DNA from: Owenia fusiformis
Taxonomy: Eukaryota; Annelida; Polychaeta; Sabellida; Oweniidae
Assembly: GCA_903813345.2 (NCBI GenBank)
Contig: CAIIXF020000009.1
Coordinates: 4,616,347-4,680,346 of the forward strand
Direction of reading: 5' to 3'
DNA: 64,000 nucleotides
Shown here: piece after piece, positions 525-53,066 of the stretch
How positions within the stretch are numbered: the first letter of the stretch is position 1
How the letters are laid out: every line of letters begins with the position of its first letter
Position numbers and translations under genes: made by a program
Notes under the pieces: generated by a model
What the model was told of the DNA's origin: nothing
The model's input: the letters and a program-made list of their open reading frames with translations, nothing else
The model's database searches: none

Positions 525-3500
525 TATTTGCTGTCCACTGACACCCGCAGCTAGAAACACCAACGACATCTATAAAGAAAAGGGTAACAACACTTGCATT
601 AATAAGATATAAATACTGTTAATAGTGGTGGAAATGGTACGATAAATTGTTTGTGCCTCACCTTGCGTTGATTTGAATTTCTTTATATTCGAAAAAAGCA
701 TATAGGAACTCGGAGTCAAGCATAATAAATTGATTGATCAAAAGTGATTCCTAATAGATTTACAAGTTTAACAAGTCGTATAAACTTATTAACTCAATCT
801 ACCTCCTCGTCTCTTTTTCTGATTTATCCATCTAATTACCAAAATAAAATAGAGAAGAAAGAGTCTAATGCTATGGCCTATGGCATTATTTTTGCTTCTT
901 TATTCATTAAATTCAAATATATTCGATATATGAAACATTCATATTCGCTAAATCATTTTTCCATTCGGTAAAAACGTTTATATGTTTGTTACAGCAAATT
1001 AAGTTTTCAAAGTAGCCAATCACTTAATACTATGTGCATTAAATTACATATTTCATTCGTTAAATGATATTTTTTGCGTTATGGTATTTCTTAAGAGTAA
1101 CACATTATATGCACAATATTGAATTTCTATTTGAACCCTACCGAAATAAGTTTGCCTATATTTACCAAATGGTTTATTTTTCTATGACATAGTAAATGCA
1201 TTTTACCGAAAGCTAATTTGCTATTTACCGAAAGCAAAGTAATTTCGATAACTTGCGTTGTTGTTCGATATTTTGTTTGTCACGTGACTTCGAGATTTGC
1301 AAAATGGCCGCGCAGCTATTCTACATCGTACAAATATATCACGTGACTGAAAGTCTCGTAAATTATCGAAAAATAACGAAATTTATCGAATGTGGGTTCG
1401 GTATTTACCGAATATAAATAATTTAAATACCGAATGTACAAATAATTAATTGAATTATGCGTGCGTTACGGAAAACAAATTGATTCGCTGCATCACACAA
1501 ATACATGTATACATATCAAATGTGAATGTCAATACAAAGAACAAGTGAAACTATTCAGCGAATATAAATTGTATATATTATTACATTTGATAAAATAAAA
1601 AAAACATTCGATAGACTGGGTAAAGGTTTGGTAAATTGTCTGTTTTATTTGGTATTTATGGAATATTAATGTACCGAATAAAGAAGCAGTTTAAACACCA
1701 TAATGGCGGCACTATGAGAATAGTAATTCAAAAGCCGATGAACAATTAATGCTATACCTTCAGCACACTGTGGTCCTTGCTTGTGTGGAGGGCAGATGCA
1801 GCTTAGTCCATCATTCCAGGGAATAGCTATTCCTTCATTGCAAGTTTCTTAAACAGGAGAATCATACAATTACGTACATCATTTAAAAATGCCCTTGGTG
1901 ACTAGAATGTTCGATTCTAAAAACTGCAGTGCTCATTTTTAGTATAAATGAATAGAATCGTAAAGAAAAATAACTGCACATACATGAAGAAATATCAAAT
2001 TATATACGTTTGTTTTCATTTACAAATCATTTTCAATCTTTATCCATTCATTGTGCTTGTGCATGAAGGATTTAAGCCAAGTATAAATAATTTGTTCATC
2101 ATTTAATGGATGTGATTTTCGTTTGCATCTTACGACAAAGAATTTAGTAACGATTTTACACAATATGTAGCACAATGCGATGGAGCACAAAAAATCATGA
2201 ATTTTTCACAAATAGAAACATATACTATATCTAGTAGTCAAAATCCAAGCTTGTTAATTTCATACCAGGACAATCCCCATCATTGCATGATTGTGTTTCT
2301 GTAAGATCACTTGGATTACATTCGCTTCCTCCATTAGCTGGGGCTGGGTTGTCACACGCTCTTGTGCGAGTTTGGTCTCCATCTCCGCATGTTGTAGAAC
2401 ACGCTCCCCATGCTGACCAGGTACCAGGACCACCATTAACTGAAATATAAAAAAACATTTCATATGGACATTTAATTTTTTAAATTAATCATAGTTCAAT
2501 AACGAAAGTGTTTTGAGTTGTACGTTTGTACAACATACAGCTCAAATATGAATTTGCGTTCATTGACCATCACACTGTATAGTTGTTTAGAATCTAGTAA
2601 TATCAAGTTCGTATAGTACCTGGGCATTCCCCATCATTACATGACTGTGTTTCTGTAAGATCACTCGGATTACATTCGCTTCCTCCATTAGCTGGAGCTG
2701 GGTTGTCACATGCTCTTGTACGAGTTTGGTCTCCATCTCCGCATGTTGTAGAACATGCTCCCCATGCTGACCAGAGTCCGGGACCACCGTTAACTGAAAT
2801 AAAAATGATAAATTAAAATTTCCCGATATATTACTTATACATAAAATTCCTTTATTCCATCATACTTCTAAATGTATTGAATCTAGCCTATACTACATTC
2901 AGTACTAAAATGAATTTGTGTTCATTGACCGTCGCATACTTTTACTTTTGTTTAGAATCAACCAATGCAACATTCATACCTGGACATTCTCCATCATTAC
3001 ATGACTGTGTTTCTGTCAGATCACTTGGATTGCATTCGCTTCCTCCATTAGCTGGAGCTGGATTGTCACATGCTCTTGTTCGAGTCTGGTCTCCATCTCC
3101 GCATGTTGTAGAACACGGTCCCCATGCTGACCACGTACCAGGACCTCCGTTAACTAAAACATAGCTCAGTACAAATAAACGGATTCTCTCTCTTTATATA
3201 AATCACGTTTAATTCTCAAAATAGTGTACTTAAAAGAAAAAGTATTGCAGAAAACGTGCAAATCATTTTTCGAAGCAATTTGAGTTTATCTAACATTGTG
3301 ATATTTACGTTGCATAACGTATATTCTCATGTCAATGGTATAGTTAATTTTCTAAGCATTACTAGCTGAATTCTAAAGAATGAAACACTCATTTCATTAT
3401 AAAGTAGCAGATATGATCAGAACTAACAAAATATTTCTAACGTATAAACATTCTGATTGATCTGTCATCATAATACCTGGTATCTGCGTAGCTGGTGGTT

Positions 3501-4696
3501 GACTTTCGAGGGTAGTGGTTGGGAGAATAGTAGTAGTTGGTAGTACTGTTGTTTCCAATAGGGTAGTCGTTGGTATTAGAGTGGTTGTTGGTAGGATTGT
3601 TGTTTCCAGTAGGGTAGTAGTTGGTATAAGAGTGGTTGTTGGTAGGATCGTTGTTTCCAATAATATGGTAGTTTCCGGTTCAGTCGCACGCGTGAGAACT
3701 AAAAAAACATATCAGAATTACTCATTTGAACATATATAGCAGATATAACTACGCATCTTTTCGTGAAATAGCTTAGCTAATTAAATAAAAGTAAAATATG
3801 CTTATGATACACAGGTAGTAATATACAAGTCTCTTGGGAAACAGACAATTAGCATACATTCAATGAGTTTTAATAATAGTTAGAATGTAAACGGCAATTT
3901 GTGTGAAAGCTATTCAAGTACATTTAAATGATGACCTGTGTTGGATCTAAATCGTATCAACCACAACCACAATATTTAGCTTTTCATTTCGGCTATTTTG
4001 GTTATGTTTTTAAACTTGCTACACTCATAGAAAAGAAACTCGTACATATGTAGAAATATATGCATTATAACAAAGTGGTTTGTTGTTTTACCATGCTGTC
4101 TAATAAGAAACTTTACCTCTTCACTGGGGATCGACTAGAAACGAAATCATAATGGTCGGACCGGAAGCAGACTTTGGTAAGATTTTTTGTTTTCTCGATT
4201 ACTAGTCCATCGCTTCATAAGTTATAAGCTATACGAGAATAAAAACATGCTATACGTGAGTTGAAAAATCTCTCTATTATCCAAATATTTGGCACGTATG
4301 TAGTGCGGAGATTATTGTTTGGAAATATGATTTCTCCTCAGGAAAATATAGCCCAATTGTTCTGATATTTTGTTTGTGAAATCATTTTTCGAAATAGGAA
4401 TCTACGCACTATATATATATGCCAAATCTTTAGTAGAAATTTGGAGGATAAACTACCTTTTCGATCAAAACAAAAAATATTTTCGAGTTCTGTTTCCGGT
4501 ATTCCGGCAATGTTATAATGAACACATAATGAATGTCTTCGTTTCCAGTTGATCCCTAGTGCTTTCAGGAATTTTTATATTGCCAAGCTAAATGATGCCG
4601 TGTTTTTAGAAATACGCAAATCTAGAAATTACCCTAATGTAACTTACCTGTCACACAAGTGAACAGCACTTTCACCAGCCAAATGTTTAACTGCAT
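525..4696 (-). CDS. TED-A: secreted Thr-repeat/TSP1/EGF protein, 3'-partial
   Basis: Seven exons seen on the minus strand: 4696-4648 (leader, [16 protein letters not shown]), 3698-3477 (Thr/Pro repeats, three 17-residue units), TSP1 exons 3153-2980, 2793-2620 and 2439-2266 (174 nt each), 1847-1758 (half-EGF, four Cys, starts [13 protein letters not shown]), 569-525 (15-residue linker [15 protein letters not shown]). All junctions are GT-AG and phase 1 and the frame is open throughout. The second EGF exon and the DUF3011-like end expected from the paralogues must lie left of the window. Each TSP1 has the six-Cys pattern, a WSxW motif (the middle one is GLWSAWG) and CSTTCG, sites for C-mannose and O-fucose in this family. 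Predicted secreted and heavily O-glycosylated. Exon by exon it is closest to TED-D. The binding partner is unknown. Confidence 0.85.
3511..3663 (-). repeat. 51-bp coding minisatellite, 3 units (TED-A)
   Basis: Three 51-nt units encode 17 residues each, of the form [18 protein letters not shown]; the last unit is the variant ending ILPTTT. The unit length is a multiple of three, so copy-number change keeps frame. Flanked by constant EPETTI upstream and [12 protein letters not shown] downstream. Confidence 0.9.
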
Positions 4697-4752
4697 TGTT
4701 ATCTTCTGAATTACCGCCGATCAGTAAAATACTGACATTTATGTATCTCTGT

Positions 4753-4760: not shown

Positions 4761-6218
4761 TGAATGCAGTGGTAACATGATAGGGGTGTAATTAGTTAAT
4801 TTGCATTAAACGATTACTTCTTTAAATTAAGATTTGATTATTATGGTTATTTAGAGTCTACTTTGTAATGCGATGATAGGGTTATTAGGTAATTTAGTAC
4901 GTCTCCCGGTGACCTTAGCAGCGGACTGGAGAGTACTGATTGTACAAGTAGAGCAGGTGAATGTAAACGCTAATTAAACAGAATGCATATCGAACTTATG
5001 GAAATCATATAATAACATTTTTATATGCCTCTGGTAATTAAATTGTCAAAGAGACAAAATTATCAAACTTCAAAAGATATAATTCTGTATAGTTTAAATC
5101 GTTGTATGAAAAATATGTACTGAAAAGGTAGACCTAATAACTGATTTCTATCATAATCATGGTTATATTTTTCAAATGAATAGAGATAGACATTATCAAC
5201 AAGACCGTCTCCTAATTAATTGCCCATTGTTTAATTAACACAATAAACTTGTATTTTAAGGCAAGACCGTCACATTCTGATGTTTGCTACTCTATTCAAA
5301 GGGATAGTAGGGACTGAGGATCCCAAAAAGATGCACATATTGAAAAGTAGCGTGCTAAATTACTGCTTTTATCAAACACGTTTGTCATGTTTATTTGCTG
5401 TTTTGTTTTTTTGTAGAAAATGTGACATTTTGTTTTTATGAATATATGTCTATTGTTTTTATTTTCACTCCTCACTTTATACACGACGGTTTGTATCATC
5501 ATACAAAATGGAATCAATATGCCCCGATAAGAGCCCAATTTATATCCAAAGAACATGTGTACGTTTTTATAGATTTTATTTCATAAAATATAACATTTAC
5601 AAAACATTTTGGCATGGGGAGACGGCTATCTATCGATCAGAGCTTGCATAATTGTATACAAAAGAAACGATTACCTAATCATGAGATAATGTTACGCAAT
5701 GACAGCGCAAAATCATGATTATGCAACCTTATGTAATCATTAATCTTTGGGATAAGAGCCCAAAAACAAGTATTCTCGTGAACGAGTGTTTAATTATAAC
5801 AATTGAATGCTAATTTTATTTTTTTTATTTTATTTCAAAATAATTTTTTTGTGACAAAAAGGCAAATTTTCCCAAAGAATAATCTGTTATCTTTCATATA
5901 AATCAGAGTCAACGTAAAAGAATTTCTTTGACTGAACTTATGCACTTCCAAAGATAGCAGATATCACGAAAAGCCTTTGAAATCAATGGAACACGCAATA
6001 ATTGAATAATCAACAATTTCAAATTTAACTTGTTTTTTTTTTTAATTTAGCATCCATATTTTAAGATGTTGAGCAAATACAAATCAGTGATTCAGTAAGA
6101 TATAAGATAAATGCTCGATTTGGTATTATTCCAAATGTAATTTCGGTCCATGGCATATACAAGGTGGGCCAAAAAACGCCACTTTTTTCAAAATGCTTTA
6201 ACTTTTTGAATTTTTGAT
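4761..6218. other. intergenic, shared promoter region, no gene seen
   Basis: The first about 230 bases are homologous (inverted) to the region upstream of TED-D (31560-31785), including a stretch containing GGTGACC and GAGAGTA motifs. The rest is AT-rich with short ORFs only; nothing recognisable as a gene. A lone AGGTGGGCCAAAAAACG near 6161 resembles a mariner-type terminal sequence, but no partner end was found. Confidence 0.5.
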
Positions 6219-8106
6219 ATTAAGGTAACGCTTAAGTTAATCAAAAGTACAAAAAAATGGCAGGCATATTTTTTGACTAAGTCACAAGATTTTGTTTTCT
6301 GTTTTCCTTATATGTGAATGCATTTCCTGACTAAAGAGACATGTCAAAGAAAGCTTCACATTTAAACGCATTTTTAACGATGAATTGGAGGTGCATGGGT
6401 CCCTAAAACTAGCATGGAGACAGTGAAGTGAGGATAACTTTTTAAAATTTCAAGGAGTAGGATTGCAATGGAGACACATTTGTAAGACTTCAAAATTTCC
6501 ACAAATCATCTTACCTAACACCCCAGTCACATTTGTCGTACGGAGGCCGTGCGTCGACCGCAGATCAATTAAATCAGTGTATTTCTGCCGCGAGCGTAGG
6601 AAAACTACGATCGCCTTGCGGCCTTCGTACGGCGTATCCAGTTTTTTGAAGGCCGCAGGGTCGCCGTAGAAATTATAAATCGGAGTTATAATATATGTTC
6701 ATTTCTGAGTTCCCCGTAGAAATCAACTGGCTCAACAAGATTGAATCATTATTTGTCAATGTTTCACGATCACTTTTCATTTGATATTACATCCTTGCAC
6801 TATGAATAACATTTATAAATTTTACCGATGTAAATTAAATGAAAAAAATCAACAGTAATTTAAAATTCACCGTGCGGCTGCCGTGGGAAATGTGACTGCA
6901 AAAGTATGAGAGCGCAGAAATTCCACAGCGAGCGTAGAAATGTTACTGGCCGCAGAAATGATAGACCGCAAGGTCGCCGTAGGAAATGTGACTGGGATGG
7001 TCAATAATAAAATGCCATATTTAATGGGCCACTTCAATGTTTTAGCATATCAAAAATATTTTGAAACATTAGTGATGTCACTAAGGTACCAAAAACTTTT
7101 TTTTTTTTTTAAATTTTTCGATGTCAATCTTTTCTAAATATGTTAGACTTTCATAAAAAACCAATGTTGATTGTCTAACCAAGTTAAAAGAAAAAATAAA
7201 TTATGTTTTAGATATCATTGTACCATTGGTTTCTATGAGAACTAAAATTTTGAAATGCATTTTTCTCAGAACCATTTTCATTTTCAGTTCATTTCTCGCT
7301 TATTTATGAACCGATTTTCTTAATTTTTTCGGCAAAAAACACGGGAGGATGAAAGCTATGCATTGGTATAAATTGTGGCTAATTAGAAGATATGAGTGAC
7401 CTCTAAAAGTTGGTTTTAAATAAATTCACAAATTTTGGAACAAAAAGTCTATCAAAAACCACTTTTTGAAATTTAAAAAAAAAGTTTCACATATCACACT
7501 TTGATAACATTGGGTAGGACTACAATATAAGCCAAAGTGGTTTAAACTTTATATGGGGCCTTTAAAAAACATCAATTATGTATCTATCATGATTATTATA
7601 CTGTTATATATAAAGTATACTAGTGATAATCCATGCCACTTGGTGAAGTCACAAAAACTTATATGAGGATTACAGGAAGTCTAGAAGTAGTTCCAGCAAG
7701 AAAAATGGTGGACATGAAATATTTATCAGAAACTATGGTTTGAGCTTTATCATATTCTAACAATGCAAGAAGAGCACATTTTCATGCTCCCTCGATGTTC
7801 CTTGGTAAGGTAAGATGATTTGTGGAAATTTGGGATTCTTGCAAATGTTTGACTGTTGCAAGGCTACTCCTCAAACTCTCAAAAATTAGCCTCATTTCAC
7901 GGTCTTAATGTTAGCTTTGGGGACCCATGCACCTCCAATTCATAGTTATAAAAAATGCGTTTAAAGGTGAAGTTTTCTTTGACATGTCTCTTTAGTCAGG
8001 AAATGCATTCACATATAAGGAAAACAGAATACAAAATCATGTGACTTAGTAAAAAATATATGGCTGCCATTTTTTGTATTTTGATTAAGTTAACGGTTAC
8101 CTTAAA
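6219..8106. mobile_element. large foldback element with about 300-bp inverted arms
   Basis: The arm at 6219-6517 is the inverted copy of 7808-8106: for example the AAGGTAAC motif, the GCATTTCCTGACTAAAGAGACATG motif region and AGATGATTTGTGG occur in mirrored order. A second inverted pair is nested inside (6522-6996, ends CCCAGTCACATTT and its complement), GC-rich next to its termini. No transposase ORF is visible. A diverged piece of the right side reappears at 45335-45535, so this is a dispersed family. Confidence 0.7.
6522..6996. mobile_element. nested MITE with CCCAGTCACATTT ends
   Basis: Starts CCCAGTCACATTT at 6522 and ends with the exact complement at 6984-6996. The interior is locally CpG-rich (GCCGTACGG-like motifs, repeated GGTCGCCGTAG), unlike its surroundings. 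About 475 bp, no ORF of note. Sits inside the larger foldback element at 6219-8106, so it inserted later. Confidence 0.55.
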
Positions 8107-8528
8107 TCATAATTTGCATACCAAATTAAACTTGAGGTTGTTATCTAGCCATTTGGGAAATACATTTTCTACACATACAATATAATGTTCAAATTTTTGG
8201 ACCAAAATGTATATTTACAATTGTCATAGTATGTTAATAGTCCTTCCACAATTCCTGGTATGTTATGATATTATCTATTTGCATTTATAGAAAACATTAA
8301 TTTATACTTAAAACAATTTAGAGATATAATTAACCTATCTGTTTCTATATCACTGCCTAATTAGCGGTCCTGCATACACCTGCTGAATCCCATGGTTAAA
8401 GGTCTCCGGGATACTTACCAAATTACCTGATACCCCTATCACATTGCAAATCAGGCAATCAGGCATTAAGAATCACATTGATATAATTATTTTATGTAAA
8501 ACTCAACTAATTAGAGACCTGAGATTTG

Positions 8529-8536: not shown

Positions 8537-8591
8537 GCGAAAATCTCGCATTTTCAATATTCGTCTGATCAGTTACAATTCAGGAGAAAAG

Positions 8592-11500
8592 ATGCAGCTC
8601 AAATTTTGGCTTGTGAAAGTGATGTTCGCTTGTGTGACAGGTAGGTCTATGTTACATTATACACTTTAACAGGTATTGGTTAATTTATGAATTAAGAATT
8701 GTTTGTATATCTATAATATTTGATATTTTAAAATATTTACACAGACGTTCCTAGAAGTCTTGGTGGTGATTCAAAGAATTTTAAACCGGTTATAATTGAT
8801 GTTATATTTCTGAACAGGTCATGAACGCAGTCCATTTTGTAGTTTTAAAACCATATTTCGGGTTCAGTTTTGTGCTTAACAAGTCTTCATATGATTACAT
8901 TCTAATCGAAAATTGAACAGTTTATAAATTAAAGTTACACATTATAAACGTGTATAACATTTGTAAAAAATATTTATCTTAAAGTGTGTAAAATGGATAA
9001 ATCTAAAATTCTAAAAAGTCCAGTTAATAAAAATAGGATTTTTGGTTTGTTTAGAGATGAGAGAGCACATTAATATGTTAATGGTAATTCTTGACGAGCT
9101 ATGGTTTTTTATATTGCCACCAAATCATGGAACAAAATTGTAAGAAAATGAGAAAATATTTACAATTGTTCTTTAAAGAGATTAAGAATACTGTAAAGTA
9201 CACATCAATTTTAGTTTTCAAACATTTGTGCGATAATTGTAGTGCAATCTGCCTGTTTTCTGCAAATTACTCGATTCTAATATGTATTTTCAGTTCTCAC
9301 AAGTGCGATTGAACCGGAAACTACCATATTATTGGAAACAACAATCCTACCAACAACCACTCTTATACCAACTACTACCCTACTGGAAACAACAATCCTA
9401 CCAACAACCACTCTAATACCAACTACTACCCTATTGGAAACGACGACGTTACCAACGACTACTATTCTTCCAACCACTACCCTCGAAAGTCAACCACCGG
9501 CTACGCAGATACCAGGTATATATGATGACATAATCAGTATGTTTATACGTTAGAAATATTTTGTTACTTCTGAACATATCTGCTTTTGGTAGTGAATGTT
9601 TTTTATCCACGAAAAATCAATCATACACAATTTTCCAAACACTTTCGAGAATATATTCGTTTTACTTAGTCAACTCTGCCAACGCATCTTAATAAAATTG
9701 AAAGCCCATGGTTTTGGCCAACACTTTTAGTCCATAGTTTGACTACATACTGTTCTCCATAATTAAGAAAAGGAACTCAATTTTTAAATTGAACTGACTT
9801 TTAGTAAATGGAGGACCTGGTACCTGGTCGGCTTGGGGAGCGTGCTCTACCACATGCGGAGATGGAGACCAAACTCGTACAAGAGCATGTGACAATCCAG
9901 CCCCAACTAATGGAGGAAGCGAATGTAATCCAAGTGACCTGACAGAAACGCAGTCGTGTAATGATGGAGAATGCCCTGGTATAAACTTGGTATTGCTTGA
10001 TTCTAGACAACTATATACAATGCGAACCCCAATGAACGCAAATTCATTTAAGAACTGAATGTTGTACAAAAGTACGACTCGAAACACAATTGCACTCTTA
10101 AAAATTATTACTTGGATTTCCTTATATTGAGAAATTGTACTACTCATTTTAAGTCAAAAATTACTTAAATAATCTTGAACTACTGAATAATTTTTAAGTA
10201 ATTTTTAAGTAATTCATTTATGGTGAATTTACTAATGCAAGGAGAGAAATTGAAATACTTATTGTATAGTAATTGTAATACTCATTTACATAATTAAGCA
10301 ATTAAAAAACTCAAAATGACAATATAAGTTAAACCTAAGTAAAATGAAGTAAAACTAAGTATTTAACTTTAAGTAATTTTTATACTTGGGAAATACTCAA
10401 GTAATTCATTTTTAAGAGTGTGGTAATTGAAGTATGATTAACTGAAAAATTATCTATAAGCAATATTTTCTAATTTAGTTAACGGAGGTCTAGGATTCTG
10501 GTCAGCATGGGGAGCGTGCTCTACAACATGCGGAGATGGAGACCAAACTCGTACAAGAGCATGTGACAACCCAGCCCCAGCTAATGGAGGACTCGAATGC
10601 AATCCAAGTGATCTGACTGAAACGCAGTCGTGTAATGATGGGGACTGTCCTGGTATGAACTTCGTATTGCTCGATTCTAAACAACTAGTTTTAAATTATT
10701 ATACGCGTTAATAAGAAGAATAAGAGGCAAGAAAAAAGTTTATATTCAATTATATTCTCCCATACTTGAAATAAGATGTTTTATATCACCAAATGATACG
10801 GAAAAAAACTTAACTTGATATAATACAAGCGGTAATTTCAGTATATATTGCATTACTTCGAATTCACCTTCTATATTGCTGTATCTACGGTAATAATTCC
10901 TATGATTTTCATAGCTTTCGTAGTGACTATACAATGCGAAGCCCGATGGACGCAAATTCATTTTAGAACTGGATGTTGTACAAAAGTACGACTCGAAACA
11001 CTCATGGTAATTGAAGTATGATTAACTGAAACATTATCTATAAGCAATATTTTCTAATTTAGTTAACGGAGGTCTTGGATTCTGGTCAGCATGGGGAGCA
11101 TGTTCTACAACATGCGGAGATGGAGACCAAACTCGTACAAGAGCATGTGACAACCCAGCCCCAGCTAATGGAGGAAGCGAATGCAATCCAAGTGATCTGA
11201 CGGATACACAGTCATGTAATGACGGGGAATGTCCAGGTGCGTACTTTGCATTGCTAGATTCTACACAAAAAGTAATGTCAATGAACACAAATTCATTTCA
11301 GAACTGGATGTAATATAAAGGATCAATTCAATTAAGGCACTTTGAGTATGATAGAACTAGGGAATTTTATTTATTCTAGTCAACGGAGGTCCCGGTACCT
11401 GGTCAGCATGGGGAGCGTGTTCTACAACATGCGGCGATGGAGACCAAACTCGTACAAGAGCATGTGACAACCCAGCTCCAGCTAATGGAGGAAGCGAGTG

Positions 11501-14500
11501 CAATCCAAGTGATCTGACAGACACACAGTCATGTAATGATGGAGAATGTCCTGGTATGAAACTTATTAATCTGGTATACTGTATTAAGAATTAAGTAATA
11601 ATCTTTAACGTTCAATTTAAATTAGATGATACATATTCATTTTTATTTTACTTGAGTTGGTGCTTATTTTCTTATTCCAGTAACCTGCAATGAAGGTGTA
11701 AGTATCCCATGGAACGATGGACTCAGCTGTATCTGTCCCCCACACAAAACTGGCCTACAATGCGAAGAAGGTAGGATGTCGTGCGATTTTGATTTAGACA
11801 AAGCACCCCACGCGAATTTTATGTTTTGTATATAGCCTATGTATATGCATTCCCCATAGATTATATAAAATATCAAATAAACGAAAATTTAATAATTTAT
11901 TAAATGAGATAAATTGCTACATCTTTGAGTTATAACAATCGAAAAATGGCGGGACCACTGACAAATGTTCAAAGTATATTTCCACGCTAAAATTGACTTG
12001 ATTGCCGGATTTGATTTGAAAATAAATATGCATATACAAGGGGCGATCCATATATTCTGATAAAAATTCTCTCATTTTTTTTCACATATCCCTTTCATTT
12101 TTTCAGAACATGTAGATTATGTAATTACACATACGATGCTAAAATATTTAGAGCTGTATCTTAAATTAATTTTGAAATAAGGTTGCCATTGTAACTTGTA
12201 TTTAAGGTAGGCAGGTCAGTTAAATTATAACGTCTAAAATAGATAAATATGTTAATTTAATCATTCCCAGGTACCTATTTTAAGCAGATCAAACGCATCT
12301 CCCAGTCATTGCCAACTATTCATTGATCTGTTCCATACCCCTGTTGCCCTTGGTTGATAATTTATACAGTGGGATAGCTATCTTTTCATAAGTAACATCT
12401 CAATTTATCGTAGTGTTATTCTCTGTCCGCAAGCTCTTCTTGCAACCAGATTGCGGATGATCTTCAACAGTGACCATGCTTTCCTCTTTACAATACTACC
12501 TATATATTCTTTATGCAGATATAACACCTTGCCCATGCACTTTATGAGTTCATGTATGTCTCTGACAGTGTCCTCTTACTTATTCTTGAAAGAAAATCAA
12601 ATCTAATGGTATTCCCTAATGTATCCGTTAATGTGACACTCTGCATCAGCCACATTAACCTAATCTGACAATTTGATTTTTGGTGTGTCTCATAACATGT
12701 AATGTCAACTGGCCCATTCTGTCCTACAATGCTATTGTGATTTGTTGTGATGTTATAGTGAGCACATATAAACATTTGTTTAGCAACAAACAACGAGTAA
12801 CAATACCAAACTTTTTTAGAAAAAATGCAGGATTTCCGCATGCTTTAAAATAATTAAAATCACAAGTTATTTTGATATTTATATGTTATAATTAAATTGA
12901 CCTGCCTACCCTTAATACAGGTTACCATGGGAACCTTATCTAATTGATAATTTAAGATATAGCTATAATATTTTAGCATTGTATGAGTAATTACATAATC
13001 TACATTTTCTGAATACATGAGAGGGATATGTGAAAAAATCATAAAATGAGAGCATTTTTATCAGAATATATGGATCGCCCCTTGTATATTATTATCACAT
13101 TGAATTATAATCTAAACATACGATGAAGTACAATGTCTCATATAAAAAGCTTCCCTTCTATTTTTTCAGATGTTGCTGGAGCTCCAAGCTGCTCATGTTC
13201 ATGGCCCGTAACCAGTAAGTCCAGTTGAATATTATATTCACATGTCGTTTAATTTATGTAAATGTAGATAATATCGCGATGTTTTTATCCACTCACAGAT
13301 AAATATATTCGTAGTATATCGATATGGCGCTCTGTTTGCTCCTGAAGATATCGATTGAGGGTAAGATTCATTACACTAATGAATCATATGGTATCCTTTG
13401 TGTATTTTAAATGATCTGTGCTTTTTCAAAGAACAAACTGCAGGGCTGACCCAAAAATATGGGAAATGTTTTATCTGATGATAAATTGTTCATTTTCAAA
13501 ATGCAGATAATGAACTGTTTCCGTTGCGAGAATTAAAAATAGAGATTTTTGTTTTACCGTTTCACTTACGTGACCAGTATAGGACGGTATGTCATGAAAA
13601 TTTTCAAATATTCAATGTTCAAGCCATTAGTAGCAAAAATGGACCAGGCTGATTTTTCAGAAGGGTTAGGCAAATAGTCATGACCTCGTTGAATTTGAGG
13701 GCATGTTGGGCATGGATTCGTTATCATATATTTTCTTTTTCAGTAAGATAACACATGACTAGCAAACAAGGAATTGAAATACATTCAAATTATTTTGCCC
13801 CAACCTGCATGTCTTTAGAAATCGTGAACTGAAATGATTTCAATTAATACTAAAGGGTATACATTCCTCAGATAATCGAGTTATAAGGTATATCTGTGTT
13901 TTATAAAGAGGTTCATTTAACACAAATATGTATTATAAGTTATTGAATGATTTGAAGTGCAATACAGGATATATTCTGCTCGAGAAATTCCGTATTGGAA
14001 CGAGACGAACGTGTGATACTCTGTATTGCTACTGAAATTGTCCCCTCCGTACCAATATTTTCTGCATTGCGACGGAGATGATCAACGGGAACAATCTCAG
14101 TAGCAATACAGATTGGTACAGCACAAGAACTGACCAATCAGAGGGCTTCATTTTACAGATCATACGATAATTCTTTTTATTGTAGATGATCCATGTGCTC
14201 AAAATCCATGCCTTGGCGACTCGATTTGTGTCAACACATTCGGTGATAACTATAGATGTCTCTGCCCAGCTGGCTCTTCTGGGGAACAATGCGAACAAGG
14301 TATGTTGAAATAATTAGTAATATTATGTGCGCAGTGACATGGCTATCAAGTTGTTAGGCAAAAATAGACGAGGCTATAGAATAGGTTACATCAACTTCTG
14401 ACTAACTCTTTCGACACTATATTAATGACGTCTATAATAGGGTCCGTTACATCAGTCAGTTTCTTTTCAGGTACATTTTGCTTCCGGTGCTCCAGCAAAA

Positions 14501-17698: not shown

Positions 17699-17701
17699 AG
17701 C

Positions 17702-31780: not shown

Positions 31781-31785
31781 ATTCA

Positions 31786-42004: not shown

Positions 42005-42068
42005 GACTTAAGCTCTGTCTCACACTCAGTTCCAAACCAGCGGGACAACACATCGGAGCAGAGAGAGA

Positions 42069-45000
42069 ATGAAAATGTTTGTGACAACTCTGGGAATCGT
42101 TTTGCTATCACTGGTGGCTGGTGAGTTTGTTTTACTTTGATATTAGGCTATTTATTAGGGTCGTTCAAAAAGGTTTGCATGAAAGCTTCTCAAGGAAAGC
42201 TAGACATTTTAATATTTTTACATGATTTGTTTAAACCAAAAAATCATATTAAAGTGCTAATCCTTTTTGTTGACATGGAATACCACAAAAGAATATTGTA
42301 GTCGGTTGATTACACTGTTTTCAAATTTTATATTTTTGTATATGTCCATATTATTTGAGTTCTTAACCCAATTGAAATAAATTGTGTAACCCACTATTGT
42401 GAGAATTATATTTCTTGACTGAGAGACATTACCTTCCAACATATAGAACCCTAAAATAAATTTATGTTTCCATTTGATATCACATCTTAAGATATTTCTA
42501 ATTTTTCCCCAAATATTTTGTAAAATCTGCATGTTTTTATGTCTCATATTTTTAATTTTCGAATCATAGACTTTCACATAGAAATTTTTACATCTTGGTG
42601 TTGGCCAATTACTTTCCATAATGCTTCTTTCATGTTTACTTTCTAGTAAAATATTATACAATCGTTTAGCATTGATGTGCTGTATGTATCCATTTACCAT
42701 CTTTCATAAGGTAATTGTTTTTTGCTTTTATATTTGTATGTTTTTCTGTTTTTTTTATCCAAATTTTGAATGAGTTTATTTGAATAATCTTTTATTCGTA
42801 TATATTCGATCATCCAATTATATTTCTTTATCAATTTATTCAGATAAAAATCCTTTATATAAAAAACCACTTTTTATCCAATTATGACTGTAAAAAACGT
42901 TTCCCTTGTTGCTCACTAATTTTTGATTTAGCCAAAAGATTTCACCAAAAAGATTTTTGTTGTTTAATTTGTCAATTTTACATCTATTGAATGCACTAAA
43001 AATATCTTAATAGAATTTAGGCATATTTATCTTTATCTTTATTTCTTGTTTAAATGTAGTTTTAATGAAATATTTTACCTCAAATCCACATCCACATTTT
43101 TTAATATAATGTATTGGTATATTTTTCAAGTATTATCTTCAGAAAAGATTCGTTTTACCCAACTTCCTTTGATTGAAGCTATTTCAATTCTAGATCTACT
43201 AACCCTAGACCCCCATTTTCAACTTTTCCTCTGTATTTCTTTTTAATCTATCTCTTTTCCACAAGAAATCAAAAATTATTTTATTAACTTTCTTTATAAC
43301 ATAATCAGGCACATTTGGTACTGAAAAATTATAAACTAGTTTTGAAATCCCTTAACTATTAATCACTTGAACTTTTCCAAAATAGGCCAGTTTTTTTCTT
43401 CCATGATTCAAATAATTATTCGAATTCTAACATTTTTTAGTCCAAATTCAATTCTTCACACTTTTTAAGGTCATTCCAATATAAACTCCGAGGAATTAAA
43501 TTTGTTCCTTTGTAAATTTTATATTCTTGTATAAATCTGGTTCATTGTTCTGATTTCCAAGCCATATACCATGTGTTTTATCTAAGTTTAACTTTAAGCC
43601 ACTTAATTTTGAGAATTTGTTTTTATTTCTTCGAGAAAATATATTATTGAGTCTTTTTGTCTTTTTGTCTTAACATAATTGTTGTATCATGCGCATGTTG
43701 TAGTATTTTAATTTCATTATTGTTTATAGTTATTCCTTCTATTTTAGCATTTTTTCTAATATGTTATTTGACATTATTTCTGTGCAGCATATGAATAATA
43801 GTGCAGATAATGGACATCCTTGTGGGATACCTCGTTCAATTTTAACTTCTCTTGAACAATACCCATTATTTTTCATTTTTAATTTAGGATTTGTATACAT
43901 AATTTTCACCCATTTTCGAAAATTTTCCCCAAAATTCATTTTTTCCAAGACTTTAAACATGAAATCCCAATTTAGCATATCAAACACTTTTTAAGTCTAA
44001 ACTTATTAAAATGCCTTGTACGAGGGGGTATCATTAATTAGTGAGACTTTTTTGAGGCAGCATCTTATATTCATTCAATTGCAATAAAATTTGGTAGGTA
44101 TTTGCCCTTGGGAATAGGGTATTGAATGAACACACTCATTAATTTATTTTCATAGATACCTAGCAACAGCGGTTACCATGGCAACGGTTGCTAGGGGTTG
44201 GTGGAGCAGCTAAAAAATTACCAGAAACAAGGGCACTTTTTACTATGTAATTTTTTACAAAATGACAGTTTCTTTTCAAATTTTGTTTACACAGTGCCCT
44301 GAGGTGGTTGTTATGACAACACAACCAATTATGGTGTCATCTCTAGTACATGATGTCACACATGGCTGTGACATCAGAGACACGGCCATTTTGCAGTACT
44401 TTAGGGTGGAGCAAAATTGGCTAAAATAGGGATGAATTCCAAAGAACTCAATGTTAACATAAGATCTGTTATAAAATACAATGCAATCAGAGGTATTCCA
44501 GCACTAGACACCTTAAGGGGCCTACATGAGGTGTATGGGCAGGAAAATGTGAAGCGGTCAACTGTTTACAGGTGGTATTCTACATTTAAAGATAATGGAA
44601 ACCACACTGTTTTTGATGCTCCCAGATGTGGTCGCAAAGCTGATACCGTGATTCCAGAAAACATCAAACTTATTGAAGATATAATATCTATGGATGGTAG
44701 ACACACTATTACTGAACTTTGTATTATGTCTGGACTCAAATATTCCTCAGTTCAAAAGATTCTAACCCAAGAGCTATCTATGACTCGTGTTAGCGCACAT
44801 GAAATATAGAGAAATTGGAAAATTTGACGTAAAATCTTGAAGTTTTTTTATATTAATAACTGCTCCGGGTCACTGGTCATGACGTCACATATATAGAAAT
44901 CTCTTAAACCACTATATGATAGAGTTAACTAATCAAACTACATGAGGATGTAGCATACTACCAAGATGTTATTTGGTGAAAATATCAATGCAATTGAAGC

Positions 45001-48000
45001 AAATTTGAAAAAGTTATGGTACTTGTCTCACTAATTAATGATACCCCCTCGTATATTTTCCTCATTTGCATATTCAATTACGTCAATTAGTAGTTGAGCG
45101 TTTGTACCTATGAATCTATGTTCTATGTACGCTGATCGATTTATACTTACAAGTTTTTTACTAAATGTTTTAATCTGTTAGTCAAAGTAAAAGCAATTAT
45201 CTTATAATCATAATTTTTTAAACTAATAGGTCTCTAATTAGGTAATTAGGAGACAAAGATAAGTAACACTTTCTGATGTAAAAATAAGGGGGAATGGAGG
45301 TAGAAAGGCACATCCTTCTTTTAGATAACAATACGTTTTGGGCCTCATTATTCTCTGACAATGCAAAAAGTACATATTTTCATGCTCCTCTGATGTTTCT
45401 TGGTAAGATAAGATGATTTGTGAGAATTTTGAATTCTTATAAAGAGGTCACTGTTGTAACCCTACTCCTCACTTCTCCTCACTCCATTATCCTCACGTCA
45501 TAGTCTTCGTGCTAGCTTGAGGGCCTTTTGGTACTTATGTGTGCGATTCACGTGCCCTCTGCCACTTTTCTCCCAATTAATCAATTCTTATATGTATGGT
45601 CAGTTCTCACTCGAGCGTTTGAGCCGGAAACTACCATATTATTGGAAGCAACGGTCCTACCAACAACCACTCTTGAACCAACGACTACCCTATTAGAAAC
45701 AACAGTACTACCAACAACCACTCTTGAACCAACGACTACCCTATTAGAAACAACAGTACTACCAACAACCACTCTTGAACCAACGACTACCCTATTGGAA
45801 ACAACAGTACTACCAACAACCACTCTTGAACCAACGACTACCCTATTGGAAACAACAGTACTACCAACAACCACTCTTGAACCAACGACTACCCTATTAG
45901 AAACAACAGTACTACCAACAACCACTCTTGAACCAACGACTACCCTATTGGAAACAACAGTACTACCAACAACCACTCTTGAACCAACGACTACCCTATT
46001 GGAAACAACAGTACTACCAACAACCACTCTTGAACCAACGACTACCCTAATGGAAACAACGACGATACTAACCACTGCTATACTCCCAACAACTACCCTC
46101 GAAAGTGAACCACCAGCTAGTACACAGATACCAGGTGTGTATGATGGCATAACCATCATGATTATAATTTTGTTAATCATTTTTGAATCTTCTATTTGAG
46201 TGTGATCGAAAATGTTTCTCCAATAAAATTCAACTTCTCATACCTACACAATTAAACATATAGTATTGAAATCACTTTACTTTTTGCAACGTAATTATCA
46301 CATGTTTGATCAACTCAAGTTGCTTACAAGAAATGTTCGAGTTTTCTGTAACACTTTTACTTAACAGCATTGGTATTCATAATATTTACTATAAGATTAA
46401 CAACTTTACTTTATGAAGTCCAATATGTCTCACTAAAAGACGATATATGCCAACGAATTTTACCAAATGGCCACTATTTTTCAAAACATTTTGTTCGGTG
46501 GGATTTGCGACGCCGCGAAGTTGCTGTTTTCGGGTTAATTATTTACTACTTTTATCCTAGTTAACGGAGGTCCTGGTACCTGGTCAGCATGGGGAGCGTG
46601 CTCTACCACATGCGGAGATGGAGAACAAACTCGAACAAGAGCATGTGACAATCCAGTCCCAGCTAATGGAGGACTCGAATGTGATCCAGGTGATCTGACA
46701 GAAACACAGCCGTGTAATGATGGAGAATGTCCAGGTATAAATTTGGCATTGCAAGATTCTAAACATTAATATAGTGCGAAGCTCAACGAACACAAATTCA
46801 GTTCACTATTCGGTGTGAAGTACAAATAACATTTCAATTAATTCAATATATTGAGTGTGATAGAATTGGGTAATTATTTTTTATTTTCATAGTCAATGGA
46901 GGACCTGGTACCTGGTCAGAATGGGGAGCATGTTCTACAACATGTGGAGATGGAGACAAAACTCGTACAAGAGCATGTGATAACCCAGCCCCGGCTAATG
47001 GAGGAAGCGAATGTAATCCAAGTGATCTGACTGAAACACAACCGTGTAATAATGGAGACTGTTCTGGTATGAACTTGGTATTACTAGATTCTAAACATTA
47101 ATATAGTTCAAAGGTCAATGAACACAAATTCATTTCAGAACTGCATGTAATACAAAGGTTCAATTCAATACATTAAGGTCCTTGAGAATAAGAAAATTAT
47201 TATTCTTAGGAACAGAATTGGAAAACTATCTATTATTTTTTTATTTTAGTTAACGGAGGTCCTGGTGCGTGGTCAGCATGGGGAGCGTGCTCTACAACAT
47301 GCGGAGATGGAGACCAAACTCGCACAAGAGCATGTGACAACCCAGCCCCGGCTAATGGAGGAAGCGAATGCAATCCAAGTGATCTGACAGACACCCAGTC
47401 ATGTTACGATGGGGATTGTCCTGGTATGAACCTAATAATACCTCTATAGTCTATACTGTATATCAAAAATAGAGGGTATTTACCGTTAGATTTAAATCAA
47501 ATGATATATATTCTTAGGTTTTTTGCTTTACTTACACGCGTAAATTAGATACTTTCTTTCCTTTCCCAGAAACCTGCAATGAAGGTATAAGTATCCCCTG
47601 GAACAAGGGACTCAGTTGTATCTGCCCCCCACACAAAACTGGCGTACAGTGTGAAGAAGGTAAGATGTCGCTTATTATTTGGAAAAAGCGTACAAAGAGA
47701 ATTTTCTGGAGCAGACATAGATGCACGCCATTAGTAGATTACATATAATATATAAAATAAAAATGTGTTTCATAATTCTTGAACGAATGCTCACTCGATG
47801 ATAAAAATTGCTACAGACTGTACGTTTTTGAGTTACCACTCCAATTTAAGATTCCAATTGACTTGGTTGTCGGATTTGATTAATAATGCACATTTTACAC
47901 CACATTGGACAATATACTATCATACAAGAATTCCTCAATGAATTATGTCCCTATAATATGCATCCCTTGTTTTGTTTCACAGATGTTCCTGGTGCTCCAG

Positions 48001-51000
48001 ACTGTTCATGTTCATGGCTACAAACCAGTAAGTCCCTTGGAATATATGTACATGTACTTAGCGTTCCATATGACAGATATTAAAGTAAGTAATATATATA
48101 TAATATAAAAGTTTTTATTCACTTGTGGATATTGATATGTCAAATTGAATTGGTTATTGATTGAGGTAACACATGCTTATTGAATAATGAATTGAAAAAT
48201 TTTCGAATTGTTTTGCCCCATCCTTTATGTCTTTTGAAATCCTTGCATACCGATATGTTTTTAATAGTTAAAGGGTATGCATTCCTCAAGGGTTCCCATT
48301 ATAAGATATCTATGTTTTTATAAATACTTTCCTTTAAAACTTTACATATCTCTATTTATTGTAGATGATCCATGTGCTCAAAATCCATGCCTTGGTGATG
48401 GCTCGATTTGTGTCAACACATTCGGTGATAACTATAGATGTCTCTGCCCACCTGGTTCGTCTGGTGAACGGTGTGAACAAGGTTGGTCGAAATAGTTATT
48501 GGAGACCGTACCAGACCATCTCTCTCCTAATATGGCAGTTATAACCATATATATACTTACCATGCTCAGCAAAACATGGACAAATGTTTTGATATAGTCA
48601 CTATTGATTAGTTAAAAATGTAGTGTTCACTTCCGGTAGGCTGCCATCTTTTAAGATTTCACCCAAGAAGTGATGTCATCATCTTAACTTTGCAACTTTG
48701 TATTAGGAAAGGAGCTATTAAGAATAACAAAACCAGCAGAATATTTTTTTCAATTTTGGTCTATGATTTAAATCCTTCTGAAAAACACTTCTTTAATTCT
48801 AAGTTGACAAGCTCTGAAAATATTGTTCCACAAAAGATGAGGGGTTCTTCTCTAGATGTGATTTTGTGCTACTTTCCTATACTGTAATGGCAAGGTTATG
48901 ACAGGTGAGAGTTGATGACATCACTTCCTGGATGAAATCTTAAAAGATGTATACTGATATACATTATTGTATTGATTCATTGGTTTTGCGTTGTGAAAAA
49001 TATCGCTAGCTTAAACTCTCTATTAATATTGTGACGTGAACACGGTGATCATATAGCAATAAAGTTGAAGCTTTGCATATGTATGCCAACATACGATATT
49101 CTGAGCCATAAAAGTGTGAATTTCTCTCTAACCGGGACACGCGTGTACTTTCATATATACCTGAAGCACTGAACGAAATGCATCACACGAACACATACGA
49201 AAACTTAAGTCACGTGACAGACTATACCCACCGTGTATATAATGGCTTGTATCTTGCTGTCAAAGAATTGTCTTGGTGTTTTACGGCATTTGTCCATTAA
49301 GCTCAGACAACAGGCCCATCCGAAGGATTTCCCAAGGCAGGTGCAGAGCATCGAAAGCTTGAGGGTCCTGGGTCACGCCCTCAGAAAAAAACTGGAAAGC
49401 CCCCCTGGTGCATTTTGAGCATATCTGAGAGTCATATTTGCATCATTGAATACAAAAAGCTCTAAAAAATATTCCTGGAAAATGGGGAGGGAGCTTGCAG
49501 AAAATAATGTACAGAGAGGGAGATGAGACCTGATGCAAGAATATGTTAGACAAGGATAGACGAGGCAAGGTCCTCATATTACATGAACCTTTGATTCACT
49601 CTTTTGACACTCTACATGTATTTATGACACGCTGTCTTATCTGTCTATGCTGTCTGTTTCATTACTCAATCTCTCTTTCAGGTACATTTTGCTTCCAGTG
49701 CTCAAGCTATAGATATGCTAAAAGGACATGTGAACCAATGGCTCGTGCCCCTGCCTACATACGTGATGCAACTCTCAGACTACCAGTATTGAATAAGCAG
49801 ATATCAAGGTAAGTTTTCACATTTGTTATTTCAAATTATAATTTGTAACAATGTATGCATTTTTTGTCTTTAGTTCCCATTTAGAACTTTGGGTTTTAAC
49901 CATGCGGTCGGACTCCCAGACAATGTGTTGTTTCATTTTAGGACAACATGTACTATTACTCCCTATTAAACTATATTTAGTTTTAAGATTGACAGCATAG
50001 ACTCAATAGCAATTACCTGTTCCCCCTGGAAGGAATCCCTTAGCTGATGAAATGCACATGTGCCTGCCTGGGTAAGCTATGCTGGACTAGACAGAGCTCA
50101 TGCTTCAAGGCATCATTTGGATGTAAATTATTGTACTTTTAAGGATATATTAAATGAAATAATGAGCATACAAATGCAGACTGATGCATCTGAATAAGAA
50201 TCGTAAGACCTTGACTTATAAAGAGAAATTCTTGATAAAATTTTAGAAAAAGAGAAATATAATAAAAACAAGAATTTAACATGAAGAAATGACCCTTTAG
50301 ACTAACAAAGGCATCCAGAAAATTAAAAAAAATTCTAACATTATTCCATAATAGCATGTTTTCCCTGGGAAATAAACAGGGAATAGAATTGATATTCAAA
50401 AGATCCCATATTATAGCTAGATTCCTATCTCAGATCCCGTATTGGATTCTGTATCAGCCTAATTCACATATCAGATCCTATATCAGAACCATTCTCAGGG
50501 ATTTCTCTTGATTTTTATGTTTCAGAAAAAAACAATTTAATAAATAGGTTATTGATGGTGTTGGTTGAATATGAATTTTATTTATTTTATTCGCCTCGAG
50601 AACTATCATATTTGTTACGCGGTAAACATGATGCAAAAATATGTCATATTCCGCAACGAATATGGCATATTCACTTGCGGTGTATGACAGATTCACCTGC
50701 GGAATATGGCATACACACTAACCAATGAGAATGTGATACGGAAGTACGCAATTGTCAATTGCATCGATTGAACGAACAAATAAAACTTAATAAATTATTA
50801 TAATGATTACTGAATCAACAGTACTGTGTATCGAATATATTAACTTAGCAGAAGTATCAGTCACCAATTTCAATCCAGGATTCATATATTAGTACTTGAC
50901 GCACTAACTATATTGGTAATCCAACGTAGTTTTACATTTAGAGTCGATTCTCGCAACCAATCAAATCAAGGCTTTCTGTATCACGTTTTCAACTGCAGTA

Positions 51001-53066
51001 TATGTCATATTCACATGCGGTATATGCCATATCCTGCAAGTGAGTATGACATATTCCGCAGGGGAGTATCGGGTATTCAAGAAAATCAATGTATCGCATA
51101 TTCATTGCGGAATATTGCATACTCACCTGCGGAATATGCCATATACCGCTGGTGAGTATGGCTTATTCACCCGTATCACAAATACCGTGCAAACATGAAT
51201 GTATGCCATATACCGCGTAACAATATTAACACTCGGGCTATTGCCCTCAGTCAATATGATGTTTTCCTTGGCCAATATCATATTTTCCCTCAGAATAAAA
51301 TTCATATTCAATCCCTCCCATTAAATTACCTCTATATATCACACATACATTTTTAAAATGCTACTTGGAGAAGTATTAGTACTCATTATAGAATTTCTGA
51401 TCTAATTGTGCCACCTTCACTTTCTTATATTTCTAAGGGGTAGGGGTCAACAAAGCCATATTTAAAATTCCAAATAGTATTGTATCATTACATTCTTTAT
51501 ATTACAATTCCCCACATAAATTGGAAATAATTTTAGATTACTTCTTAAAGCAGTATTGGTGCCAATTATTTCTCTGAAGCTGCAACAATAAAAATGGCGA
51601 GACTAAAAAACGAATGAAAATATGCTTATTTATTACTATAAATTGTGTTTTTGTCAAAACCGATCAACATATCTCCCTATAACTTTGGGAAACACTTGGC
51701 TACAGTGCTAGCAACATAATATGTATAAATCAGTGCTATAGTTAATGCATAACTGATTTTATAGAATGATAATATAGTACCCCCCTGAAATATTATTCTA
51801 GGGGGGTAAAACTGCCCAGAATCCTTCGTCCACAAACTAAAAAGACCCAGACATATATGAATTGATGCTAAATGAAGTCATCTTTCAGAAACATTATGTC
51901 TATCAAGTGGCCCTTGAACTTCCCAAAACCCATGCTATATCCTGGCCTAATACTGACACCAGAGAAAAATGCTTTGCTGCGCGCGTGACAATTTCCCGCA
52001 ACTTTCATTGCAGAGCGCAAATTTTACAAATAGCGCAGCTTACCGCATCTTTAAGACTTCAGATAGTTTTCTAGTCAGTATCGTCGATTCCTCAAAATCA
52101 GGGTTAAACAATTTTTCGAAAGACTTTTTAATGTCACGTACCGATTTACGTTTTCATGTAATATTGACAAAATCAGTGGTTAAGTGATCAACATTACTGT
52201 CTACACCTGGTTTACACGTTACAATATTCAAGTTTATGGACATGTATTTGAATATGAAGCAATTTTGATGACTGTCAATGAGAGAGACCCCAATCACAGG
52301 GCGCTCACATGGCACTACTTTTGTTCTTTTTCCATCGCAAGTTTAGCATACCTCGCGCCCTCTCAGATTTGAACTTCTGAGGTCAATTTGAAGCAGTTTG
52401 AAAAAATACCTTTTTGACCTTGAGGAGGTCATTGAAGGTCAAATCTTAATCTAAAGTCAGCCCTTGGCGTAGGATTTGATCCTATGTTTCAAATTAACTA
52501 ATAAAAATACATAGTCGGTCAGGAATGGCACATTGGAAAGACCATATGTGACATCACGAATAGTGTGATTGGCAACCTGGAAAGACAGGTAAACCTTATG
52601 AGGGTCCAGGGAACTGGGCATGTAAGTCATGGCAGAGAAGCCATATATGCAGTGTTGATGTGTAAAAGCCAGTCGGCTCCGTAGCTCAAGTGGTAGAGCA
52701 TCCGAGATCTAATCTGGAGGTCATGGGTTCAGTTCCCACCGAGGTGAAGTGACTTTTTCACATCATCACTTAGCCTAGGATTTGATCCTATGTTTCAAAG
52801 AAACTAACTCTATGTAACAATCCACCAATAAAAGTATATCTCTGTAACAGAAATGGATATATTTTACCACTCTATTATAGTACAAGTAAAAGCTTTACCA
52901 GAAATATAGCAATTGACAAAATCATAACCCATGCCTTAATTATTTTATCTCCAGACGAAAATGTACTTCTGACTTATGGGGTACGGACCAGTGGTCCTCA
53001 CGAAAACTATGGGTCAATGGTGGATGCAGGGCCAAATTTTGCGTAACATATACTGCAGCACCATAG
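42069..53066 (+). CDS. TED-E: secreted Thr-repeat/TSP1x3/EGF/DUF3011-like protein
   Basis: Exons: 42069-42120 (leader [18 protein letters not shown], phase 1), 45604-46134 (Thr/Pro, nine units), TSP1 at 46561-46734, 46893-47066 and 47250-47423, half-EGF 47570-47659, linker 47983-48027 ([15 protein letters not shown]), EGF 48365-48481, 49682-49808 and 52955-53066 (TAG). Sum 1596 nt = 531 aa. The leader differs from that of A, B and D, and its assignment rests on a TATA box, a signal-peptide-like sequence and matching phase; intron 1 (3.5 kb) holds a LINE and a mariner. The EGF exon uses a GTTGGT donor. TSP1 copies vary more than elsewhere (CGDGEQ, CGDGDK, WSEWG, SCYDGD). DUF3011-like end intact: [15 protein letters not shown]. 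Poly(A) signal AATAAA at 53199-53204. Confidence 0.85.
42257..44020 (-). mobile_element. LINE (L1/Tx1-like RT) remnant, 3' portion
   Basis: The minus strand reads as a decayed reverse transcriptase: [19 protein letters not shown] and [14 protein letters not shown] (43987-43739), [18 protein letters not shown] near 43560-43620, and a C-terminal tail in 42700-42257. The catalytic F/Y-A-D-D box reads HAHD (43697-43686), so two key residues are gone. Frames are broken by several shifts. The N-terminal part continues past the mariner at 45052-45240. It lies in intron 1 of TED-E, antisense to the gene. Confidence 0.8.
44021..45051 (+). mobile_element. mariner-like transposon, internally deleted, 1031 bp
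   Basis: Perfect 27-bp terminal inverted repeats (44021-44047 and 45025-45051) starting CGAGGGGGTATCATTAATTA, flanked by TA on both sides (44019-44020, 45052-45053). It is inserted into the LINE RT domain; both sides read on as one RT when the element is ignored. It carries a 125-aa ORF. Confidence 0.92.
44432..44809 (+). CDS. mariner transposase N-terminal DNA-binding part only
   Basis: 125 aa from ATG 44432 ([19 protein letters not shown]) to TAG 44807. It carries the two helix-turn-helix segments of mariner/SETMAR-type transposases: [20 protein letters not shown] followed by [17 protein letters not shown], then [19 protein letters not shown] and [16 protein letters not shown]. The protein stops just where the catalytic DDE/D domain should begin, and only about 240 bp separate it from the right terminal repeat, so the catalytic part is deleted. 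Such a product could at most bind the transposon ends; activity is not implied. The 5' context lacks a promoter I can recognise. Confidence 0.8.
   Translation: MNSKELNVNIRSVIKYNAIRGIPALDTLRGLHEVYGQENVKRSTVYRWYSTFKDNGNHTVFDAPRCGRKADTVIPENIKLIEDIISMDGRHTITELCIMSGLKYSSVQKILTQELSMTRVSAHEI
45052..45240 (-). mobile_element. LINE RT remnant, upstream portion
   Basis: Minus-strand reading includes [40 protein letters not shown], with a shift, typical of the segment just before the first catalytic Asp box in L1/Tx1-type RTs. It joins the fragment at 42257-44020 across the mariner insertion. Confidence 0.7.
45335..45535. repeat. diverged copy of the foldback family at 7740-7925
   Basis: GACAATGCAAAAAGTACAT, CATGCTCCTCTGATGTTTCT and GGTAAGATAAGATGATTTGTG match 7760-7830 in order and orientation; similarity continues through CTACTCCTCA. 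It ends just before TED-E exon 2. Confidence 0.65.
45639..46097 (+). repeat. 51-bp coding minisatellite, 9 units (TED-E)
   Basis: Eight near-identical units [17 protein letters not shown] and one terminal variant ([17 protein letters not shown]). All use LEP where the other genes have LIP, and the DNA of neighbouring units is almost identical, a sign of recent homogenisation within this gene. Confidence 0.9.
48482..49681. other. TED-E intron 8, nothing recognised
   Basis: 1.2 kb AT-rich intron between the EGF exon and the first DUF3011-like exon. Its 3' part (about 49540-49680) is homologous to the matching introns of TED-B and TED-C. No element ends or coding signals seen. Confidence 0.5.
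50545..51331. repeat. foldback element filled with GCGGAATATGCCATA-type palindromes
   Basis: The outer arm AGGTTATT...TTGAATATGAATTTTATT is mirrored by AATAAAATTCATATTCAATCCC at the right end; same family as 23562-23748. Between the arms about a dozen copies of short words such as CATATTCACCTGCGGAATATGGCATA occur in both orientations. Non-coding; lies in TED-E intron 9. Confidence 0.7.
52470..52799 (+). repeat. candidate tRNA-derived SINE with long flanking direct repeats
   Basis: A 24-bp direct repeat starting TAGGATTTGATCCTATG flanks the unit (52470-52493, 52776-52799). Inside, 52677-52750 reads like a decayed tRNA: box A TAGCTCAAGTGG, D-stem GCTC/GAGC, T-arm GGGTTCAGTTCCC. The acceptor stem does not pair, so it is not a tRNA gene. 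Confidence 0.5.

Follow-up and report, generated by a model that had tools for sequence, protein, structure and literature searches.

The window, by which is meant the whole 64,000-nucleotide stretch of the Owenia fusiformis genome analysed here (C9:4616347-4680346), holds a cluster of five related genes, A to E, recognized by self-comparison and frame scans, and the exon models bear out the five paralogues and their strands (A and C minus; B, D and E plus) put forward in a preliminary description. Exon placement relied on conservation among the paralogues, on AG/GT borders and on phase (Table 1); as such borders were sought during placement, the presence of GT-AG at 46/46 introns of the models is not independent support. 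All five genes have a common plan, i.e. a Thr/Pro exon composed of 51-bp units, three or four TSP1 exons of 174 bases each, a half-EGF exon of 90 bases with four Cys, a 45-base linker exon bearing the motif C-x-C-x-W, an EGF exon, and a final pair of exons that encodes a single, C-terminal, DUF3011 domain. Intron phase is 1 at all internal junctions but the last, which lies inside DUF3011 and is phase 2. This order had been proposed for all five and stands from the Thr/Pro exon onwards; the leader also included in it is confined to A, B and D. Copy-number and domain-number variation, likewise claimed, is evident, with 3 TSP1 exons in A and E and 4 in B, C and D (18 in total), and 51-bp repeat copies ranging from 3.0 in A and B through 6.0 in D and 8.3 in E to 10.0 in C.

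Table 1. Exons of the five genes and a candidate leader (window positions unless marked L001, the 10 kb to the left of the window)
Feature	Position	Strand	Details
Gene A, window part	525-4696	-	leader 4648-4696; Thr/Pro 3477-3698
Gene A TSP1	2980-3153, 2620-2793, 2266-2439	-	half-EGF 1758-1847; linker 525-569
Gene A EGF	L001 9720-9836		left of window; DUF3011 exons L001 9233-9359, 8523-8631
Gene B	8592-15008	+	leader 8592-8640; Thr/Pro 9294-9515; frame-broken
Gene B TSP1	9805-9978, 10479-10652, 11063-11236, 11380-11553	+	
Gene B tail	half-EGF 11681-11770; linker 13170-13214; EGF 14186-14299	+	
Gene B DUF3011	14471-14595, 14903-15008	+	first exon 125 bases, out of frame
Gene C	24421-29286	-	Thr/Pro 28708-29286; family leader not found
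Gene C TSP1	28223-28396, 27633-27806, 27291-27464, 26924-27097	-	
Gene C tail	half-EGF 26699-26788; linker 25971-26015; EGF 25444-25557; DUF3011 25033-25159, 24421-24532	-	
Gene D, complete	31850-37895	+	leader 31850-31898; Thr/Pro 32900-33274; 535 aa
Gene D TSP1	33461-33634, 33790-33963, 34145-34318, 34492-34665	+	
Gene D tail	half-EGF 35380-35469; linker 35983-36027; EGF 36469-36585; DUF3011 37309-37435, 37787-37895	+	
Candidate leader exon of gene E	42069-42120	+	phase 1 donor GTGAGT; putative member of E
Gene E	45604-53066	+	Thr/Pro 45604-46134; 514 aa without leader
Gene E TSP1	46561-46734, 46893-47066, 47250-47423	+	
Gene E tail	half-EGF 47570-47659; linker 47983-48027; EGF 48365-48481; DUF3011 49682-49808, 52955-53066	+	

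The limits first given for the cluster, 525 and 53066, do match exon ends, those of the gene A linker exon and of the last exon of gene E, but the last three exons of gene A (EGF and both DUF3011 exons) are beyond the window, in L001, and with them its whole product is 426 aa. For gene D the product length expected earlier was reproduced exactly, and the one copy described as broken is B, whose reading frame is lost because its first DUF3011 exon has 125 bases rather than 127. One leader exon, MQL(N/K)(I/F)WLVKV(L/M)F(T/A)CVT, occurs in A, B and D; it ends in phase 1 and is hydrophobic, the signal peptide call being from hydropathy only; the products of A to E are probably secreted. Scans of the regions upstream of C and E did not find a leader exon of this type. 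At most two copies, A and D, are thus complete and intact, B being broken and C and E lacking the family leader.

With exon and repeat number also drifting, it could be supposed that the cluster is mostly a decaying one, in which A and D are functional, and the other three genes are incomplete or dying copies without a role of their own. This is unlikely, as every exon of C and E has an open frame and canonical borders, tail dN/dS is 0.25 for C/E and 0.27-0.35 for E with D or A, and a plausible other leader for E is present at 42069. Values for the remaining tails are lower (0.09 for A/D; 0.13 for B/C without DUF3011), and over 153 TSP1 exon pairs mean dN divided by mean dS is 0.10, ratios that point to proteins that are under constraint by purifying selection. 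The ‘rapid turnover’ suggested previously consequently applies to the number of copies, exons and repeats, and not to domain sequence, which is constrained. The candidate leader is 3.5 kb upstream of E and unrelated to that of A, B and D. A 261-base query around it gave 40 scored matches, including itself; 35 cover the downstream, repetitive, part of the query, and four, at C5:34.07-34.18 Mb, cover the candidate exon part with 78-85% identity (the resemblance to C5 being noted for window 42013-42153). At one of the C5 places (L034) the same leader is followed by a Thr/Gln-rich exon and then an exon for zona pellucida that scores 34.1 bits against a cut-off of 24.6, and gene E may have captured its leader from this other secreted family, a zona-pellucida, Thr/Gln-rich cluster.

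The preliminary description had named TSP1, EGF and DUF3011 as the models to be checked, and Pfam finds all three. TSP_1 (PF00090) matches four stretches of gene D (E 9.3e-38), and six Cys together with WxxW and CxxTC, the motifs for C-mannose and O-fucose sites, respectively, are present in 18/18 TSP1 exons, which places them in the TSP1-domain (TSR) superfamily. For EGF, the C tail is over the cut-off (30.2 bits versus 21.5) and D is just below it (19.7); a motif of the EGF-OGT type is present in B, C and E, and absent from A and D. For DUF3011 (PF11218; cut-off 25 bits) the C tail scores 29.4 and the gene D domain on its own 40.4, though DUF3011 was not among the matches when full-length gene D was scanned with Pfam. 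Similarly, the window exons were not among the matches of a search of the raw genome for the family, the domain being split by an intron. When joined, 14/14 domains examined (four of them from the cluster, B being left out as broken) match PF11218 at E<=0.01, the best at 1.1e-11, and have 18 invariant columns. An NCBIfam bacterial ‘lectin’ model matches the gene D DUF3011 domain at 8.7e-6, well under the model's own cut-off, and searches of solved structures with the domain yielded no resembling structure.

Tandem TSP1 modules followed by EGF bring to mind the thrombospondins, in subgroup A of which a TSP1 array precedes EGF. Canonical thrombospondins are, however, defined by type 3 repeats and an L-lectin C-terminal domain (PMC6526912), neither of which has a Pfam match in gene D even at E<=1, and that the cluster encodes relatives of thrombospondins with a matricellular role in the matrix is very improbable.

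Another comparison is with lectins from sea hare eggs. The Aplysia egg lectin, AKL, is secreted, has 218-219 aa, comprises three DUF3011-like repeats, binds galacturonic acid and is inhibited by it at 0.013 mM, and is described as the first protein with DUF3011 to have its function known (PMC5484111); AKL-40 is inhibitory to some bacteria (PMC8306185). From the lectin function of the one and the antibacterial effect of the other, the cluster proteins are most informative at their DUF3011 end. AKL, AKL-40 and ADEL are secreted, as the cluster proteins probably are, and their DUF3011 core motifs match those of the cluster. The difference is that AKL is three tandem repeats and nothing else, whereas each cluster gene has just one unit, at the end of a TSP1/EGF mosaic, which tells against a lectin reading of the cluster. 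Otherwise, DUF3011 lectins in the open-licence literature amount to a survey that counts DUF3011 as a lectin class and finds none in rotifers (PMC8878817).

The cluster is not the sole location of its tail. In the 498.26 Mb genome searched (12 chromosome-size contigs of 31.9-62.2 Mb, and others of 0.66 Mb and less), the first DUF3011 exon of the cluster as query matched only within the five cluster genes (6 pieces), and the second matched 16 places. With a composite of distant members there were 42 DUF3011 end-exon matches, on C3, C4, C8, C9, C10, C11, C12 and two small contigs, and a half-EGF exon query matched 60 places. A half-EGF exon is present within 20 kb upstream on the same strand for 35/42 of the end exons; random placement of the 40 that are on contigs of known length gave a mean of 0.09 such pairings and a maximum of 2 in 1000 placements. 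Whole or in part, a tail of half-EGF, EGF and two-exon DUF3011, as in the cluster, was read at loci on C11, C12, C4, C10, C8 and C3. At C11:3.65 Mb the resemblance extends to the front, with TSP1x3, half-EGF, EGF and both DUF3011 exons in this order on one strand in ~7 kb. There are also departures from the cluster arrangement: the CxC linker was not seen in the one family locus checked for it, in five loci read the open frame of DUF3011 continues into a Thr-rich stretch, and in at least one locus, C4:11.97 Mb with three EGF exons ahead of the tail, the head is EGF and not TSP1. At C11:1.20 Mb (L022, C11:1200001-1208000) a fibrinogen C-terminal domain (2426-3103, minus strand; 159 bits) is downstream of DUF3011 and an Ala/Thr-rich exon; with a transposase-like piece between DUF3011 and the fibrinogen domain, their membership of one gene is putative. 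A GPI anchor on other family members was considered and dropped: in two loci (L013, L004) a donor-like G|GT precedes the hydrophobic ends that lie beyond the Thr stretches, and these ends are probably intron read-through.

The cluster is apparently, from these comparisons, one TSP1-bearing, short branch of a larger, genome-wide and undescribed lectin-like gene family. The earlier statement that no named family has such an order holds to the extent that none was found in the open-licence literature; as a distinction of the cluster it does not, given the recurrence of the order at C11:3.65 Mb and of the tail genome-wide. Mosaic genes with about 40 DUF3011 end-exon matches in one genome would amount to a major, overlooked, class of invertebrate lectins. 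A considerably more doubtful extension is that a few dozen genes constitute an undescribed annelid lectin superfamily unified by the tail, with swapped heads (TSP1, EGF and others), mucin stalks, perhaps fibrinogen-like ends, and TSP1 exon exchange, which would be a recognition repertoire peculiar to the lineage with a logic like that of snail FREPs, the C9 cluster being its TSP1 branch. Exons of the TSP1 type by themselves greatly outnumber those of the tail: of 706 candidates in a search for them 150 were scored, among which are 18/18 from the cluster as well as arrays on C1, C4, C6 and C11. Large arrays at C6:4.04-5.19 Mb and C1:22.90 Mb have 54-71% identity to the cluster TSP1, and a further TSP1 mosaic is present at L019 (C11:338001-347500), where five TSP1 exons come before an exon for fibronectin III and a frame of the NHL-type propeller kind. 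The mollusc setting initially envisaged is contradicted by an annelid-type marker: a model for erythrocruorin linkers, to our knowledge an annelid-specific family, is over its cut-off at three places in C6:27.03-27.05 Mb, one with an internal stop. Molluscan haemocyanin had no match in the genome, a result that does not amount to absence, and COX1 had none either, so that mtDNA seems to be missing from the assembly.

Within the cluster, tails fall into two types. Synonymous difference is 0.14 for A/D and 0.12 for B/C, and 0.63-0.74 for A/B, A/C, B/D and C/D; the tail of E is nearer the B/C type, at 0.29-0.31. A/B and C/D are head-to-head pairs, inversion of the first gives the order of the second, and A and D have upstream DNA in common. 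Tail types, gene orientation and this upstream DNA all fit, and A/B and C/D would be best explained by inverted duplication of a single head-to-head pair.

The TSP1 exons are not sorted in this way. Whichever two genes are compared, their mean synonymous difference lies at 0.23-0.33, and within genes it is 0.27; a tree of TSP1 exons with their flanks rejects A+D (p 0.003), B+C (0.0004) and each of A, B, C and D as a clade (the range for rejections being 0.00007-0.003), but not a gene E clade (p 0.24). A coding-only tree has no resolved groups. The tail value minus the TSP1 value is positive, with a confidence interval above zero, in 6 of the 8 gene pairs run (B/E and C/E were left out); for A/D and B/C, the sister pairs, it is below zero. 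Against reading this as exchange, in a control the cluster TSP1 exons differ from distant ones on C11 at only 0.36-0.43 of synonymous sites, so that the low values within the cluster may reflect a low ceiling, and concerted evolution on the basis of synonymous distances alone was rejected for this reason. Values for TSP1 intron flanks between the two tail types, which are the best of 3-4 choices and hence biased upwards, reach 0.46-0.68, with 0.43-0.53 for tail flanks and a shuffled mean of 0.48 and maximum of 0.53. With flanks, the fourth TSP1 exons of C and D group at 98/99, a grouping absent from the coding-only tree. The failure of TSP1 exons to group by gene suggests exchange, a suggestion weakened by the synonymous-rate control, and it is probable that these exons have been exchanged between copies, in addition to exon duplication within genes.

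What such proteins might do can be approached from their parts. The DUF3011 end would bind glycans of the uronic-acid or galactose type, like its Aplysia egg lectin relatives, the TSP1 array would bind sulfated glycans or matrix, and the Thr/Pro stretch, as an O-glycosylated mucin-like stalk, would act as a spacer. The protein could then bridge two surfaces, either as an agglutinating or opsonizing defence lectin or as a cross-linker of protective mucus, and bridging by lectin tail and TSP1 array seems the most economical reading, whether the setting would be defence, mucus, tube or egg coat. The immune or adhesive nature suggested in the preliminary description is likewise conjectural. Inverted duplication of the head-to-head pair would have raised copy number, with stalk and TSP1 exons varying in number and probably exchanged between copies. 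Taken as a whole, that the cluster encodes probably secreted, mosaic, bridging lectins of the TSP1-bearing short branch, with a role in defence or mucus, and grew by inverted pair duplication, is put forward tentatively, at a little under an even chance. A 78-aa DUF3011 domain and a mosaic that are both defined make glycan binding directly testable. Rather less probable, and on the unlikely side, is a structural or adhesive secretion, in which the proteins would lend cohesion to tube cement, mucus or egg capsule, their TSP1, EGF and lectin modules cross-linking glycoproteins without recognition of microbes. Owenia builds a mucus-bound sand tube, which counts for the adhesive possibility, as does the variable length of the Thr/Pro stalk. 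In the adhesive proteins of flatworms, modules of the EGF, lectin, VWD and TSP1 kinds occur together with repeats (PMC6410801), and Mlig-ap1 and Mlig-ap2 resemble the cluster proteins in their EGF and lectin modules (ap1), TSP1 modules (ap2) and long repeats. However, they are far larger and have VWD/TIL modules, DUF3011 goes unmentioned in the available part of their description (PMC6410801), and Pfam finds no VWD, C8 or TIL module in gene D.

Other features of the window can be noted. Rfam and tRNA scans of it gave no matches. An intronless frame of 271 aa at 16970-17782 (minus strand) has a hydrophobic leader and is Cys-rich, and has no Pfam match at E<=0.01. By eye, frames at 55197-57578 (minus strand) resemble pieces of LINE-type reverse transcriptase, and one at 44405-44806 (plus strand) the start of a mariner-type transposase. 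A direct repeat, 21687-21918 and 61088-61318, with 98.3% identity is probably a recent mobile element, and between genes A and B there is an inverted repeat, 6215-6519 and 7805-8109, with 86% identity.
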